DNA from: Pseudomonas sp. A34-9
GTDB lineage: Bacteria > Pseudomonadota > Gammaproteobacteria > Pseudomonadales > Pseudomonadaceae
Assembly: GCF_029543085.1 (NCBI RefSeq)
Contig: NZ_CP119967.1
Coordinates: forward strand, 4,862,501 to 4,926,500
Length of the DNA stretch: 64,000 nt
Reading direction: 5' to 3'
Shown here: positions 479 through 14,821 of the stretch, one piece after another
Layout of the letters: the number at the start of each line of letters is the position of its first letter
Position numbering within the stretch: position 1 is the first letter of the stretch
Translations under genes and position numbers: made by a program
The notes under the pieces: generated by a model
Database searches by the model: none
The model's input: only the letters and a program-made list of their open reading frames with translations
What the model was told of the DNA's origin: nothing

Positions 479-739
479 TCACGCTGACGAAATACCTAAC
501 TGCTCAAACATTTCACGCTGCTGCTTACGTGGGAGCGCGTGCAGCCGGTCGAACAGCATCCGATCTATCGGCTCTGCTGCCGGAACCAGTGCATGAGAGA
601 ACGCCAGGGTCATTACAAAGCGGTGACCACAGCCCTTGGCGTTCAAACACTGGCAGTAGAGCCGAGCGAATGATGGGGAAACGTCATCACGCGATGAAAT
701 CCGCGCTTTCTCTCCACACTCTTTGCAATAAACCCGCAC
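479..739 (-). CDS. ogr: Ogr/Delta-family zinc-finger late transcription activator
   Basis: Small zinc-finger protein of the P2 Ogr / P4 Delta family, which activates late promoters of P2-type phages and their satellites by contacting host RNA polymerase. The 86 residues show the family zinc ligands: Cys-x2-Cys near the N terminus (CKEC, residues 5-8) and a distal C-x4-C pair (CQCLNAKGC) followed by GHRF. The GTG start is forced, because an in-frame TAG lies immediately upstream. It is transcribed divergently from the capsid gene across a spacer with two palindromes, and it ends at a bidirectional terminator. In P4 the corresponding gene is delta; either name fits. It probably activates the capsid/Psu-like transcription unit of the same element. 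Confidence 0.85.
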   Translation of the reverse strand: MRVYCKECGEKARISSRDDVSPSFARLYCQCLNAKGCGHRFVMTLAFSHALVPAAEPIDRMLFDRLHALPRKQQREMFEQLGISSA

Positions 740-896: not shown

Positions 897-1916
897 GTGA
901 GCCGCAGCCTCAGTTCTAGCGCCAGTTCAAAGTACCTGCACCTGCAAGAAGCTATCGCCGAAACCTACAAAACTGACAGTGTCACCCGTACCTTTGCGGT
1001 CGAGCCCTCAGTCGCCCAGGAACTCAATGATAAAATCGCTGCAAAGGCCGATTTTCTGGAGCGTATCAACGTGGTGCCGGTCAGTGAAATTAAAGGCGAC
1101 AAGGTCTTCCTCGGTGTCTCCAGCCCAGTCACAAGCCGCACCAACACCAAAACCACAGAGCGCGAAGCCAAGGACTTTTCCAGCCTGGAAAACAACTCCT
1201 ACGAACTGGCGTCAACAGAGTCAGACGTAGCCTTGCCATTCGCCAAGATCGACGCTTGGGCCAAGTTCCCGGACTTCCAGGACCGCTATACAGGGTCGGT
1301 GCAAAAACAAATTGCCCTTGATCGCATGCTGGTCGGATTCCATGGCACGCACGCAGCCCCGCAAACCGATATCAGTGCCTATCCAATGCTCCAGGACGTG
1401 AACAAGGGATGGCTCCAGCAGGCCCGCGAGCAAATCCCTGCCCAGGTACTCAGCGAGGGCACCACTGCAGGCAAGATCAGGCTCGGCACAGGTGGCGACT
1501 ATGCCAACCTCGATGCCCTGGTTCATGACGTTAAACAGATGGTTGACCTGGTGTTTCGTGACGCGGGCGACCTGATTGCAATCATCGGCGGCGACCTGCT
1601 GGCCGCTGACAAGGCGAAGCTGTACGCCAAGCAAGGCGATACCCCGAGCGAGAAAGAACGGATCGAGGGCGCCCAGGTCATCGCCACCTATGGCGGGTTG
1701 CCCGCCTTTAGCGTGCCGTTCTTCCCTGACAACGCCGTACTGGTCACCAGTTGGGAAAACCTGTCGATTTACTACCAGGCTTCCAGTTGGCGGCGTCACA
1801 TGATCGAGAACCCGAAACGCTCACGGGTCGAGGATTACAACAGTCGCAATGAAGGCTATGTGATTGAACAACTTGAGAAACTTGCCATGGCGGAAAACAT
1901 TGAGTTGGAAGGGTAA
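897..1916 (+). CDS. Phage major capsid protein, P2 gpN family
   Basis: Full-length homologue (339 aa) of the P2 major capsid protein N, the HK97-fold shell subunit. Recognisable gpN landmarks run in order: FAVEPSV near residue 34, RINVVPVSEIKG near 55-66, KDFSSL, PMLQDVNKGWL near 162, GGDYANLDALV near 200, VTSWENLSIYYQ near 288 and the C-terminal IENPKRSRVEDYNS. P2 gpN is about 357 aa and is cleaved near residue 31. The start is GTG at 897, preceded by AAAGGAAA. No portal, terminase, scaffold or tail gene neighbours it, which is unlike a P2 prophage but fits a satellite that carries its own shell protein. It is followed by a Psu-like gene after 49 nt. Confidence 0.93.
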   Translation: MSRSLSSSASSKYLHLQEAIAETYKTDSVTRTFAVEPSVAQELNDKIAAKADFLERINVVPVSEIKGDKVFLGVSSPVTSRTNTKTTEREAKDFSSLENNSYELASTESDVALPFAKIDAWAKFPDFQDRYTGSVQKQIALDRMLVGFHGTHAAPQTDISAYPMLQDVNKGWLQQAREQIPAQVLSEGTTAGKIRLGTGGDYANLDALVHDVKQMVDLVFRDAGDLIAIIGGDLLAADKAKLYAKQGDTPSEKERIEGAQVIATYGGLPAFSVPFFPDNAVLVTSWENLSIYYQASSWRRHMIENPKRSRVEDYNSRNEGYVIEQLEKLAMAENIELEG

Positions 1917-1965
1917 GCCCCACCGATCCGCGAACACCAGCACACGAATATTCAAAGGGAACACC

Positions 1966-2688
1966 ATGCAACTCACCACCATTGCCCGCGACGATTTGAG
2001 CCCAGAACTTCTGGAACAGTTGACCCGTTTCGAGCAAGACCTTGGCGTTTACACGGGCCTACAGGATCGGCTCACCGATCTAGTACAAGAAGAACAGCGG
2101 CTCAAGCAGCAGGCATCCACCTTTGAGGGACGGGCCGACCGTACGGACGCCTCTTGGAAGGCTATGGCGCAATCCGCCACCATTGACCAAGGCAAGATCA
2201 ATGAGGAAATCGAGCGTAGCGCACAGCTCAGAAAGGATGCCCAGGCGCTGCGCCTCACCGCCGAAGCGCGAAGCGGCGTCCAAGGGGCGGTAGTGATTCA
2301 ACTGGCAGAAGCCCGCATGAAACTGGGGCATGCCCCTGGCACGATCAACAAAGCGTATCAAGAGACCCTGCTGTCAAACGCGCTTGCACGGGAAGGCGTC
2401 CGGGAGACTCTTTTAGAACTGTTTGCCTTGTCTCGGGCACTGTTCCTCAAAAGCATTGATGAGCATGATGGAGTGTTGTCGAGCTGCAACGGTCAACGCG
2501 AAAGACAGGCAAAAACCCAGGAACTCACCTGGCGGACTTTCGGCTTGGAAGTCCAAAAGCTGTTTGACGGCGCCGAACATGGCATACAGGCCCCCGCCTT
2601 AGCAGTGATGCCGAGTACCGTCCAGAGAGAGGTGTTGGTAGAAACACCCGGCGACCTGATGAGGCTCCGGCAGGCATGCAAGGCATAA
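1966..2688 (+). CDS. Helical coiled-coil protein, possibly Psu-like
   Basis: 240-aa, almost entirely helical protein: a heptad-rich stretch at about residues 20-90 (QDRLTDLVQEEQRLKQQ), a second long helix pair (LRKDAQALRLTAEARSG; NALAREGVRETLLELF) and a looser C-terminal tail. ATG at 1966 is preceded by AAAGGGA. In P4-like satellites the gene at this place in the late operon is psu, which binds Rho to suppress termination and decorates the capsid. Length class (Psu is about 190 aa), helix pattern and position all agree, but I see no decisive sequence identity. Alternatives are a scaffold-like or head-size-determining (Sid-like) protein. It is co-directional with the capsid gene and ends at a terminator. 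Confidence 0.5.
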   Translation: MQLTTIARDDLSPELLEQLTRFEQDLGVYTGLQDRLTDLVQEEQRLKQQASTFEGRADRTDASWKAMAQSATIDQGKINEEIERSAQLRKDAQALRLTAEARSGVQGAVVIQLAEARMKLGHAPGTINKAYQETLLSNALAREGVRETLLELFALSRALFLKSIDEHDGVLSSCNGQRERQAKTQELTWRTFGLEVQKLFDGAEHGIQAPALAVMPSTVQREVLVETPGDLMRLRQACKA

Positions 2689-3507: not shown

Positions 3508-4596
3508 TCAACTTTCGGGCGACACTCCGTACAACAAATCCAATAATTTAGTTTTAGCATTATCATTTGCAGTAGGATCAAATATATATTCATCTGCGAA
3601 GGCTTTATCGGTTCCATCCTGAAAGCCCTCTATAGCAATCCGCACGGAAAGATCTTTCATCGACAGCTTATGATCAAGCGGCCTTAACACCTCAAACCTT
3701 AAATGTTTCCCAGGAGCGACCACTACCTTTTTTTCACCTAGTAATGAATACGGCATCACATTATAACGAAGTTGTACTTCCTCAAAGGCTTTCCGGCGAG
3801 AGTCTGGATCTTTAATTTTATTCGCCTTTAAGTATTCATCTATATACTCGCGCCGATTGGCCACATCAAAACCATAAACCAACTCAATATCACTACTTGT
3901 ATTATTGACCAGCGTGAACACTAAACCAATTTCCCCGCTTCCCCCAAGCACCCCTGCGTAGGACAACGGATAGGTATTTTCAAACCACGGCGTACCACTT
4001 ACAAAATAATTATCCGACCTGCGAAAAGAATGAAAACCATCCATATAAAACGACCAATGCCTCATAGCCAGATATGGATAACTGGGCTCCTGCTCGGTCT
4101 TAGCAATGTAAACAAAGAAAGACATGAGCATTATTATCACAGACAAACCAAAAACCACAGGGCCAGCACTTATTGGCGCCCTACCACGCCCCTCATAAGT
4201 TTTTCCATTCGCAGTTTCAGATCTAAGCATCGGCTTATGCTTTTTCAAATCTGAAACACCATCAATCAGCACCACAAAATTCACTACTTGCCCGGCAAGT
4301 ACACGATCAATATTGACCGCATTTCCGGTCGATGAAATAGCCACGTAATCACAGGAGATAATTTTGCAAAGATTAGCATCAGGAAAAACAACTTCAACAG
4401 CCTTTTCCTTATCCTTACCTTTGTTAGATATTGTGACAGTTGCAGAGCAGCCAACTACACTTTTATCTACAGATCTGAAAACATCATAGAAAGCCAGATA
4501 AAGCTGCGGCGTCCTGAACAGAGAGATAATTTTATTCAACACAAAAGTCAAAATCACACCATAAACAACTTTTAGAAAAACGTTTAATTGCTCCAT
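3508..4596 (-). CDS. Two-TM membrane protein, satellite cargo, unknown function
   Basis: I do not recognise this 362-aa protein. Visible layout: a membrane helix at about residues 8-28 (VVYGVILTFVLNKII), a ~115-residue region of mostly short beta strands, a second strong helix at about 147-168 (FGLSVIIMLMSFFVYIA), then a ~190-residue beta-rich C-terminal domain that includes a charged helical insert (REYIDEYLKANKIKD). Both soluble parts contain Ig/beta-sandwich-like strand patterns. ATG at 4596 is preceded by a G-rich GGGGCGGGGC. Base composition is clearly more AT-rich than the core genes, indicating recent acquisition. It is on the minus strand, 97 bp downstream of the PIN gene, and could be co-transcribed with it. 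It may sense or act at the envelope. Confidence 0.7.
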   Translation of the reverse strand: MEQLNVFLKVVYGVILTFVLNKIISLFRTPQLYLAFYDVFRSVDKSVVGCSATVTISNKGKDKEKAVEVVFPDANLCKIISCDYVAISSTGNAVNIDRVLAGQVVNFVVLIDGVSDLKKHKPMLRSETANGKTYEGRGRAPISAGPVVFGLSVIIMLMSFFVYIAKTEQEPSYPYLAMRHWSFYMDGFHSFRRSDNYFVSGTPWFENTYPLSYAGVLGGSGEIGLVFTLVNNTSSDIELVYGFDVANRREYIDEYLKANKIKDPDSRRKAFEEVQLRYNVMPYSLLGEKKVVVAPGKHLRFEVLRPLDHKLSMKDLSVRIAIEGFQDGTDKAFADEYIFDPTANDNAKTKLLDLLYGVSPES

Positions 4597-4693
4597 GCCC
4601 CGCCCCTTTTTTTCATAAATTCTAGCAATCCAAGCATTAAGCCAATAAGACTTTTAACTGCACAACTCAAAGCCGCTAAAAAACAATTGGAGA

Positions 4694-5206
4694 TTAAGCG
4701 ATTTTTAATCCATTCACATCTTGGCACAGAGCGCGTTGCAATGTTCGATGAACTCTAGACGGGTAAGGATAGTCACGCCGAGACATGGTCTCTAACGTTT
4801 CACGCCTTCCATGCTTAACAAATCCACGTTCATCATTACTCACAAAGATGGTCTTACCGGTTCTGACGTGGGCTTGCACAATCAGAGCATCACGCCTTTG
4901 ATTTATTTGCTTTGGAGTTACGTTCTCCCGATTCTTCGGATACCCCTCACTTGAGATAACTCGCAAAATCTTTTCAAAATTATCATCGTCGGTCGCGGAG
5001 CCCCACATCATTCGCCCCCATGCTCCCTCGCCAAAATGGAAAGTCTCCACCGTCTCATTCAGCTTTCCCGCAGCCTCACTGAGATCAGTCCCTTGAAGCT
5101 CACGGTTCGTGACGGAAGTCACTTCCAGCGAATAGCCTGCTCTCGCGACCAGTTCTTCAATATCAGCAATGGGGAAAATATTGGTGTCGACTGTTACGGC
5201 TTCCAT
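4694..5206 (-). CDS. PIN-domain ribonuclease, satellite cargo
   Basis: 170-aa PIN-like nuclease. The N terminus has the defining strand with its first acidic ligand (VTVDTNIF, Asp near residue 7). A conserved Glu follows in VTNRELQG, and a C-terminal pair in RDALIVQAHV and IFVSNDERGF gives the remaining acidic ligands of a metal-dependent RNase site. No antitoxin-sized gene precedes it, so a classical VapBC arrangement is not evident; the partner may be the membrane protein downstream. AT-rich like its neighbour. The start at 5206 lacks a strong Shine-Dalgarno. It lies between the satellite late genes and the tRNA attachment site, the slot where P4-like elements carry variable anti-phage genes. 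Confidence 0.75.
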   Translation of the reverse strand: MEAVTVDTNIFPIADIEELVARAGYSLEVTSVTNRELQGTDLSEAAGKLNETVETFHFGEGAWGRMMWGSATDDDNFEKILRVISSEGYPKNRENVTPKQINQRRDALIVQAHVRTGKTIFVSNDERGFVKHGRRETLETMSRRDYPYPSRVHRTLQRALCQDVNGLKIA

Positions 5207-5298: not shown

Positions 5299-5374
5299 AA
5301 TGCCTCCTGCTGTCACCCTGCTGTCAGGAAGTAAATCTGAAGTCGGGAGAACTGCTCAAAAGGCCTGAATTATA

Positions 5375-5451
5375 TGGTGTCCCAGGGCAGGTTCGAACTG
5401 CCAACCTTCCCCTTAGGAGGGGGATGCTCTATCCAATTGAGCTACTGAGAC
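5375..5451 (-). tRNA. tRNA-Arg (anticodon CCT)
   Basis: 77-nt cloverleaf on the minus strand. Acceptor GTCTCAG pairs with CTGGGAC (one G-U), the T-loop GTTCGAACC is present, the anticodon loop reads CTCCTAA and the 3' CCA is encoded. The 3' end faces the satellite, the usual geometry when an element has integrated into a tRNA gene and restored its 3' part. Confidence 0.97.
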
Positions 5452-12202: not shown

Positions 12203-14821
12203 TTATAAAGCCTGCTCGACGAATGGAGCGGTCAGCGCCAGTGCGCCATCCAGTGCGCCAGCGTCGACACCGCCGCCCTGCGCCATGTCCGGACGACCAC
12301 CGCCCTTCCCGCCCACTGCCGCAGCAGCCTGTTTCATCAAATCACCGGCTTTGAGTTGGCCAGTCAGGTCCTTGGTTACACCTGCAACCAATACGACCTT
12401 TTCCTCATGGACACTGCCGAGCAGGATCACTGCGCGACCGAGTTTGTTCTTCAACTGATCAACCAGCGCCAGCAGCGCCTTGGCGTCCTGACCATCCAGG
12501 CGTGCAGCCAAAACCTTCACGCCTTTGACGTCCAGCGCCGAGGACGACAGATCGTCGCCCGCAGCACTGGCTGCCTTGGCTTGCAACTGTTCGAGTTGCT
12601 TCTCCAGTTGGCGATTGCGCTCCAGCACAGCCGACAGCTTGTCGATCAGGTTGTCGCGGCTGCCCTTGACCAGGCTGGCCGCTTCCTTGAGTTGTTCTTC
12701 TGCTGCATTCAAATACGCCAGTGCCGCAGCACCCGTGACGGCCTCGATACGACGCACGCCCGAAGCCACACCGCCTTCGCTGATGATCTTCAGCAGGCCG
12801 ATGTCACCGGTACGGTTGGCGTGGATACCGCCGCACAGTTCGACGGAGAAATCACCGCCCATGCTCAGCACACGCACGTTGTCGCCATACTTCTCGCCGA
12901 ACAGCGCCATCGCGCCTTTGTTCTTCGCGGTTTCGATGTCGGTTTCTTCAGTTTCAACCGCGGAGTTCTTGCGAATCTCGGCGTTGACGATGTCTTCCAG
13001 TGCCTTGATCTGTTCCGGCTTGATCGCTTCAAAGTGGCTGAAATCGAAACGCAGACGCTGGCTATCCACCAACGAGCCTTTCTGCTGAACGTGCTCACCC
13101 AGAACCTGACGCAGTGCAGCGTGCAGCAAGTGGGTGGCCGAGTGGTTCAACGAAGTGGCGTGACGCACCTCGGCATCCACGTGGGTTTCCACTGGCGCGC
13201 CGATGGTCAGGCTGCCCGAATCCAGCACACCGTGGTGAAGGAATGCGCCGCCGGTCTTGGTGGTGTCGCGTACGTCGAAACGTGCGCTGCCCGCCTGTAG
13301 ATAACCGCAGTCGCCAATCTGGCCGCCGGACTCAGCGTAGAACGGTGTCTGATTCAGAACGATCACCGCCTCTTCGCCTTCATTCAAGACGTCGACCGAC
13401 TGGCCGTCTTTATAGATAGCGACGATTTTTGCCGAACCGCGGGTGTCTTTGTAACCGGTGAACTCGGTGGCCACATCAACCTTGACCAAGGTGTTGTAGT
13501 CCAGACCGAACGAGCTGGCCGAACGCGCACGAACACGCTGGGCTTCCATCTCACGCTCGAAACCGGCTTCGTCGACGGTCAGGCCGCGCTCGCGCGCGAT
13601 GTCGGCGGTCAGGTCCATCGGGAAACCGTAGGTGTCGTAGAGTTTGAACACCACGTCGCCCGGCACCACGGTGCCTTTGAGCTCTGCCAGATCCTGCTCG
13701 AGAATCTTCAGGCCGTGCTCCAGAGTCTTGGAGAACTGCTCTTCTTCGGCCTTGAGCACGCGTTCGATGTTGCTCTGCTGCTTCTTCAGTTCCGGGAAGG
13801 CATCGCCCATCTCGGCAACCAGTGCGGCGACGATCTTGTAGAAGAAGCTGCCGGTCGCGCCCAGCTTGTTACCGTGACGGCAGGCGCGACGAATGATCCG
13901 GCGCAGTACATAACCGCGACCTTCGTTGGACGGCAGCACGCCGTCGGCGATCAGGAAACCGCACGAACGGATGTGGTCGGACACTACTTTGAGCGAAGAC
14001 TGATCGCCATTTTCGCAACCGATTGCCTCAGCCGAAGCCTTCAGCAGGTTCTTGAACAGGTCGATGTCATAGTTGGAATTGACGTGCTGCATCACCGCAC
14101 TGATCCGCTCCAGGCCCATGCCGGTGTCGACCGACGGTGCTGGCAACGGATGCAACACGCCATCGGCGGTGCGGTTGAACTGCATGAACACGTTGTTCCA
14201 GATCTCGATGTAACGGTCGCCGTCCTCTTCCGGCGAGCCGGGTGGGCCGCCCCAGATGTGGTCGCCGTGATCGTAGAAAATCTCGGTGCAAGGGCCGCAC
14301 GGGCCGGTATCGCCCATGGTCCAGAAGTTATCGGAGGCGTACGGCGCGCCTTTGTTGTCGCCGATGCGGATCATGCGCTCGACCGGCACACCGATCTCTT
14401 TGGTCCAGATGTCATACGCTTCGTCGTCGGAGGCGTAGACGGTGACCCAGAGTTTTTCCTTCGGCAGTTTCAGAACGCCGGTCAGGAAGGTCCAGGCAAA
14501 GGTAATCGCGTCGTGCTTGAAATAGTCGCCGAAGCTGAAGTTACCGAGCATTTCGAAGAACGTGTGGTGACGAGCGGTATAACCGACGTTTTCCAGGTCG
14601 CTGTTCTTGCCACCGGCACGCACGCATTTCTGGCTGCTGGTCGCGCGGGTGTACGCACGTTTTTCCTGGCCCAGGAAGCAGTCCTTGAACTGGTTCATCC
14701 CCGCGTTAGTGAACAGCAGGGTTGGGTCGTTGCCCGGAATCAAAGAGCTGGAGGCTACACGGGTGTGGCCTTGCTCTTCGAAGAAGCGAAGGAAGGCTTC
14801 ACGGATTTCTGCGCTTTTCAT
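12203..14821 (-). CDS. alaS: Alanine-tRNA ligase
   Basis: 872-aa class II synthetase charging tRNA-Ala. Start [14 protein letters not shown] at 14821. The aminoacylation core has the motif [16 protein letters not shown] and motif 3 region GMGLERI. The editing domain carries HSATHLLH and the zinc ligands [13 protein letters not shown], which clear mischarged Ser/Gly. The C-terminal domain ends in the glycine-rich [15 protein letters not shown]. Length is normal for the family. It lies first in alaS-lysC order; the 146-bp gap to ltaE holds its promoter. Confidence 0.98.

Follow-up and report, generated by a model that had tools for sequence, protein, structure and literature searches.

A candidate stand-alone exclusion protein and a probably inactive PIN-like gene share the cargo slot of a P4-type satellite in Pseudomonas sp. 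A34-9

Do two adjoining cargo genes of a phage satellite constitute one anti-phage system, or are they independent passengers of the same slot? This question is raised by a satellite element of Pseudomonas sp. A34-9 whose late genes and attachment end lie within a stretch of 64,000 nucleotides (contig NZ_CP119967.1, positions 4,862,501 to 4,926,500; hereafter the window), which is part of a 6.54-Mb single-contig genome. The two minus-strand open reading frames (ORFs) in question encode a 362-residue membrane protein and a 170-residue PIN-like protein (Table 1). A preliminary description of the window had interpreted them as an abortive-infection pair. Both are found exactly where that description had placed them, and a 48-bp repeat at a tRNA-Arg(CCT) gene confirms their location between the late genes of the satellite and its tRNA attachment end. 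Since homologues exist for both of them (for the membrane protein 6 at E≤1e-3 in a single-sequence search and at least 50 in a profile search, for the PIN-like ORF 13 clusters), they are not chance ORFs. The AT-richness ascribed to both holds for the membrane protein gene (40.8% GC) but is only mild for the PIN-like ORF (48.1%), the values for the whole element and for positions 5500-64000 of the window being 52.5% and 57.8%, respectively.

The reading which we favour, with a probability of roughly 50%, is that the membrane protein is a stand-alone superinfection-exclusion or phage-defence protein encoded beside a separate, decaying PIN cargo gene. The two ORFs are probably independent cargo in a variable satellite slot and not a working two-part system. 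We infer exclusion as the function of the membrane protein, which would act alone at the inner membrane against rival phages, as well as a division of labour between its domains: the first transmembrane (TM) helix together with a conserved beta-sandwich bearing an NKGKDKEK loop would be the shared functional core, while a fast-changing second beta domain would recognise an arriving phage or a factor of the host. The PIN-like ORF would be a separate cargo gene from which a frameshift has removed the C-terminal strand and helix and, presumably, the activity as well. An exclusion or defence function of the membrane protein alone is proposed because Pseudomonas filamentous phages carry exclusion genes and P4-type slots carry defence genes.

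The acidic residues D7, E36, D106 and D125, which we take to be the catalytic set of a PIN ribonuclease, are present in the PIN-like ORF of the window and invariant in all of its full-length relatives (12/12). In addition, the structure model of a relative displays a PIN-like fold in which the strand and the helix spanning residues 145-162 are among the best-modelled parts (pLDDT 88-95). The reading frame in the window is, however, disrupted by a frameshift near codon 142. The alignment with the relatives breaks off for the last ~27 codons, and a remnant of the last strand and helix is still present out of frame (Table 1). The sequence together with the model points to a divergent PIN ribonuclease gene that has lost this C-terminal part and is probably inactive in the window. 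The preliminary assignment as a PIN ribonuclease is thus supported by the four conserved residues and would fit the PIN-like fold modelled for the relative, but the gene is not intact. Pfam returns no PIN match for the ORF and PADLOC no match for its relative P0001; another relative, P0002, belongs to P. chlororaphis. The nearest relative, P0012 on a 14228-bp contig, is short as well (101 aa) and harbours a glutamate in place of D125. Searches for loci of PIN homologues in viral contigs (by protein and by alignment) and in phages and plasmids (by tblastn) gave only the copy of the window itself. The same holds for overlapping sets of 144, 398 and 342 genomes, where the empty answer of the set of 342, run without a positive control, is uninformative.

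Co-occurrence of the two families was assessed by running a PIN and a membrane protein profile at E≤1 against 5289 six-frame ORFs from 28 loci including the window. While the membrane profile matched in all 15 records outside the window genome which carry the membrane gene (several of them close kin, so that they amount to fewer independent cases), the PIN profile matched solely the window ORF and its three re-fetched copies, hence 0/15 other records. Regular co-occurrence, as expected of a two-gene defence system, is not observed. As an indirect sign that members of both families reside on the same contig we compared contig sizes, for which the longest contig per cluster was considered. Among the matches listed, 2/13 PIN clusters (2/7 of those on contigs >7 kb) share their contig size with a membrane cluster, namely 17830 bp (PIN P0001, membrane P0016) and 14228 bp (PIN P0012, membrane P0014). 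For the other 11 PIN clusters no membrane cluster of the same size is among the matches listed; five of them are on contigs >7 kb, and the six on contigs <4 kb say little. Both equal-size cases are probably near kin of the window satellite in which the two genes co-occur. Homologues that never co-occur, named in the preliminary description as an outcome that would speak against a pair, are therefore nearly but not fully what is found (0/15 records, 2/13 clusters). Compared with the 14228-bp contig, the membrane protein of the window differs at 6/362 residues and the PIN piece at 9/78 (Fisher p=2e-4); this comparison, chosen after the data had been seen, fits a loss of constraint on the PIN sequence in this lineage.

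One candidate partner from another locus was tried and rejected. In the Serratia chromosome L014 an ORF matches the PIN family PF01850 (8.9e-5, 23.5 bits, the cut-off being 23.6). It is encoded on the opposite strand at a distance of about 1 kb from the membrane gene, from which it is separated by two ORFs that are presumably IS66-type transposon genes. We treated it as unrelated because the profile built from the window's PIN family does not match it, although an advocate of the pair could point to it. A limited set of literature searches revealed no paper on a PIN protein together with a phrog_17621-type membrane protein.

The membrane protein matches phrog_17621 of PHROGs v4 at 2.7e-54, with residues 7-351 of 362 aligned to profile positions 8-360 of 363. 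In PADLOC-DB 2.0.0 and NCBIfam it has no match, and in Pfam it hits chance-level models only. TM helices are located at residues ~6-24 and ~147-165, with a beta-sandwich (31-136) carrying the charged NKGKDKEK motif at 58-65 between them and a variable second beta domain at ~188-339. The structure model (pLDDT 83.6, pTM 0.60) contains helices 2-26 and 145-167 as well as two beta domains, the first of which finds generic beta-sandwiches (Ig/CBM-like) as fold matches. A hydropathy count over 48 family members yields two helices in 34, three in 12 and one in 2. Helices, model and family match support the earlier view that the protein has two TM helices, is rich in beta structure and belongs to an uncharacterised family. 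In the alignment of the 48 members 11 columns are invariant, nine of which fall within the first 131 residues (N58, G60, K61, K63, E64, R98, P122, S126 and G131), the later two being G187 and N231. Mean column identity amounts to 0.42 in the first TM helix, 0.44 in domain 1, 0.28 in the region of the second TM helix and 0.21 in domain 2. DUF11 is matched by 9/48 members, at best with 3.8e-5.

The contexts of the membrane gene in the 15 records (listed in Table 1) are accessory positions: in filamentous prophages, beside late genes, next to an integrase, and on plasmids. The P. peli stretch L015 is the same as viral contig L001/L005 and was counted once; likewise, the L006 locus is also L002. 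In the E. coli filamentous prophages the gene comes last and is oriented against the structural genes; two genes upstream of it, L010 and L023 have an annotated HTH gene, whereas L024-L026 carry no such annotation. In the P. peli prophage it is opposite to Zot, but a further ORF follows. In L007 it is the next ORF after matches to the PADLOC models PDC-M38A (1e-260) and PDC-M38B (8e-79), in whose names PDC presumably stands for phage defence candidate; this AAA protein and its partner (L007:4467-7546) directly precede it in a late region with GpD. Among 5426 E. coli genomes, 18 carry DNA like each of two queries, nearly the same records being retrieved by both. L023 and L024 represent tandem filamentous prophage copies in E. 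coli chromosomes, with the membrane gene in both copies of L024. Just upstream of the membrane gene of an IncF plasmid there is a 76-aa ORF without family (L009:7664-7894), and an ORF of equal size, unaligned with it, is present in an E. coli filamentous prophage (L025:8698-8928). This agreement in size suggests that a piece of filamentous phage entered the IncF plasmid.

Three enterobacterial pairs of the membrane gene give dS/dN values of 0.071/0.007, 0.072/0.002 and 0.681/0.037, that is dN/dS ratios of ~0.1, 0.03 and 0.05 with 6, 2 and 31 nonsynonymous differences. By this measure the enterobacterial copies are under purifying selection. The gene is split in L013 and L026. In a tree of 27 rows the satellite copies adjoin the filamentous-phage copy from P. 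peli (support 94/93, unstarred and flagged for a long branch). The filamentous-phage copies occur in two separate places, and the tree thus suggests exchange between element types.

Several observations weigh against the membrane protein as a stand-alone exclusion factor beside decaying cargo. We know of no phage phenotype for this family, and its contexts would also suit a role in the envelope that has nothing to do with defence. Neither cargo ORF matches any defence model of PADLOC-DB 2.0.0, and at most two of the 48 family members match any PADLOC model, weakly so (REase_II models, 2 and 1 members, 0.005-0.03). The family is rare, with 4 loci in the genome-contig search (a narrow pattern) and 4 viral contigs. 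A tblastn search with the window protein gave no relative at 1e-3 in 50,697 isolated-phage records, and a single-sequence search found the family in 0/292 other genomes near that of the window. The charge pattern at the helices is contradictory, since the first TM helix favours an inside location of domain 1 in 46/48 rows and the second in 4/48. The selection figures refer to enterobacterial copies and not to the lineage of the window. As to the decay of the PIN gene, the locus is represented by one sequence and the frameshift could be an assembly error. Moreover, in comparison with the 17830-bp contig, the closest full-length kin, 58/362 residues of the membrane protein differ (84% identical) and 16/140 of the PIN protein (p=0.21), hence no loss of constraint is apparent there and the pair may have been kept.

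Of the alternatives, the most serious one, which we hold to be possible but doubtful, regards the membrane protein as a factor of lysogenic conversion: it would modify the envelope of the host (pili, surface polymer or transport) to the advantage of the element and have no direct anti-phage role. Two membrane helices combined with an Ig/CBM-like beta-sandwich would suit such a task, and the gene is found in filamentous prophages and plasmids, where host fitness matters; yet defence candidates are found twice in its surroundings (next to the gene in L007, in the slot in the sister element L022), and the family matches no envelope-enzyme family. A further alternative concerns the PIN-like ORF, which might still be a working nuclease, either alone or with its new tail. 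All four acidic residues precede codon 142, and a one-protein PIN defence system, DS-3, is described in PMC13092281. We nevertheless rate a working nuclease as quite improbable, given that the lost strand and helix belong to the best-modelled parts of the relative, that the nearest relative P0012 is similarly short and deviates at D125, and that the PIN proteins of the window and P0012 diverge faster than their membrane partners.

It remains to weigh the two ORFs as a pair, consisting of a membrane sensor and an RNA-cleaving PIN effector for abortive infection, of which the window copy would have lost the PIN half. The PIN-like ORF and the membrane gene lie on the same strand, PIN first, with a gap of 97 bp, close relatives of both proteins are found twice on contigs of equal size, the acidic residues are kept in the full-length PIN relatives, and PMC13092281 reports a two-gene PIN defence system, DS-5. 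We consider the pair unlikely, as the PIN profile is missing from all 15 other membrane-gene records, the membrane gene is under purifying selection in copies without a window-type PIN, and 11 PIN clusters (6/11 on contigs <4 kb) have no equal-size membrane cluster among the matches listed. The co-occurrence results led us to reject the abortive-infection pair of the preliminary description as the leading interpretation, and the frameshift in the window also weighs against it. A variant which we likewise believe improbable is that the two proteins work together in the intact relatives, a general sensor used alone elsewhere having been joined by an RNA-cutting effector in this lineage; if true, the window would present the pair just after loss of its effector. 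Finally, a toxin-antitoxin module in which the membrane protein serves as antitoxin of a PIN toxin appears extremely improbable. The order with the toxin first and the large membrane partner are unlike VapBC, the membrane partner is kept where the PIN family is missing, and the downstream neighbour of the PIN-like ORF is the membrane gene instead of a small antitoxin gene. Between 5207 and 5374, i.e. from the PIN start to the tRNA, the ORF list contains no minus-strand ORF of at least 60 aa.

The element which carries both ORFs comprises 12,140 bp and is enclosed by a perfect 48-bp direct repeat. From its far end it encodes, in this order, a tyrosine integrase (PF00589, 1.1e-32), a 178-aa ORF, a small HTH protein, a 325-aa protein, a Toprim and a DUF927 protein, followed by the Ogr/Delta activator, the P2-type major capsid protein, a 241-aa protein and the two cargo ORFs. 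An integrase combined with a tRNA attachment repeat is present, as in P4-type satellites, and so is the Ogr/Delta activator. P4 possesses a single alpha primase-helicase, in place of which the element encodes two proteins, one with Toprim_3 (337 aa) and one with DUF927 (595 aa). Eleven ORFs of the element run against Pfam gave no match to a tail, portal or terminase family, and it was therefore taken for a P2-dependent satellite, P4 type in layout. Because of the P2-type capsid gene and of the division between a Toprim and a DUF927 protein, it is of P4 type in layout only and not a textbook P4; it presumably depends on a P2-like helper. The 325-aa protein (L017:14067-15044) is rich in glycine-alanine repeats and has a weak DUF4774 match; a 204-aa ORF in L022 resembles it when compared by eye.

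Table 1. Features of the satellite in the window and loci with the membrane gene in other genomes
Location	Strand	Feature	Remarks
3508..4596	minus	Membrane protein gene	362 aa, phrog_17621 family
4694..5206	minus	PIN-like ORF	170 aa, frameshifted near codon 142
4720..4785	minus	Out-of-frame remnant of PIN C-terminus (last strand and helix)	Identical to relative P0001 at 18/20 aligned positions
5374..5421		Attachment core	Perfect 48-bp direct repeat, other copy at L017:11282-11329 (upstream of window)
5375..5451	minus	tRNA-Arg (CCT), integration target	3' part covered by attachment repeat
479..739	minus	Ogr/Delta late-gene activator of satellite	PF04606, 1.4e-11
897..1916	plus	P2-type major capsid protein (GpN family) of satellite	PF05125, 4.1e-120
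1963..2688	plus	241-aa satellite protein without family	Marker for sister elements; listed ORF starts at 1864 (274 aa)
L015		Filamentous prophage of P. peli	
L010, L023, L024, L025, L026		E. coli filamentous prophages or phage DNA	
L016		Viral contig with Zot	
L009, L011, L027		Enterobacter IncF plasmids	L027 copy cut
L006		Integrase element at tRNA-Ser	Membrane gene beside integrase
L007, L012, L013		Late regions with GpD or tail-tip genes	
L014		Serratia chromosome	

Sister elements were sought with the 241-aa marker protein across 398 genomes of the genus, three of which, including that of the window, gave a match. The sister element L022 possesses a 45-bp repeat of its own at a tRNA-Met gene (272-316 and 12242-12286), and its slot, from the marker gene to the attachment end, is occupied by an AAA protein followed by matches to PDC-M11A (7e-140) and PDC-M11B (2e-51). 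L021, a partial case whose element end is not mapped, has beyond its marker gene an ORF of 210 aa that belongs to no family. The variable cargo slot next to the attachment end, as postulated beforehand, is thus borne out, because one well-bounded sister and one partial one show other contents, which in L022 are defence candidates. Where the window satellite has its GpN gene, both sister elements have a GpO scaffold-protease gene (L021:10184-10984 and L022:7931-8524), the match to PF05929 being confined to roughly the first half of that profile. Perhaps kin satellites took up different capsid genes, possibly redirecting capsid assembly of the helper.

The membrane family is a known but unstudied kind of gene and the interesting part of this locus. 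Filamentous and tailed prophages, satellites or integrase elements and IncF plasmids of Pseudomonas and Enterobacterales carry it, although they share little else; a gene useful to all of these is a candidate for exclusion or defence of a general kind. Copies in E. coli filamentous prophages make such a function easy to test. The locus also calls for caution, in that adjoining cargo genes should not be read as one system by default.

Compared with phrog_17621, the window protein is a near full-length member in which no difference was found; PHROGs assigns no function to the family. Among Pseudomonas inoviruses, 2/10 tested hypothetical proteins limited infection by other phages (PMC6813254), and PfsE, a filamentous phage exclusion protein, binds the type IV pilus protein PilC (PMC8764522). 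These superinfection-exclusion genes, compared by description only, resemble the membrane family in being accessory genes of filamentous phages, whereas PfsE differs from it by acting via PilC binding. Protection against phage by PIN proteins is reported in PMC13092281 both with a partner (DS-5) and without one (DS-3), and by analogy the relatives with an intact PIN may have in it an independent defence gene. From DS-3 and DS-5, again compared by description, as well as from VapC and the PIN domains of protein-only RNase P, the PIN-like ORF of the window differs in having no Pfam PIN match and no antitoxin-sized neighbour and in being frameshifted. The closest parallel to the slot is the anti-phage hotspot between psu and int of E. 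coli P4-like satellites (Rousset et al. 2022, PMC9122126). In contrast to these, the window satellite resides in a tRNA-Arg gene of Pseudomonas, its late region contains a P2-type capsid gene instead of psu, and its cargo families differ from those named in the part of that study consulted. Common to both is a changeable cargo slot, with defence candidates in the sister element, and in the circular, att-joined form of the window satellite this slot would come to lie between the late genes and the integrase.
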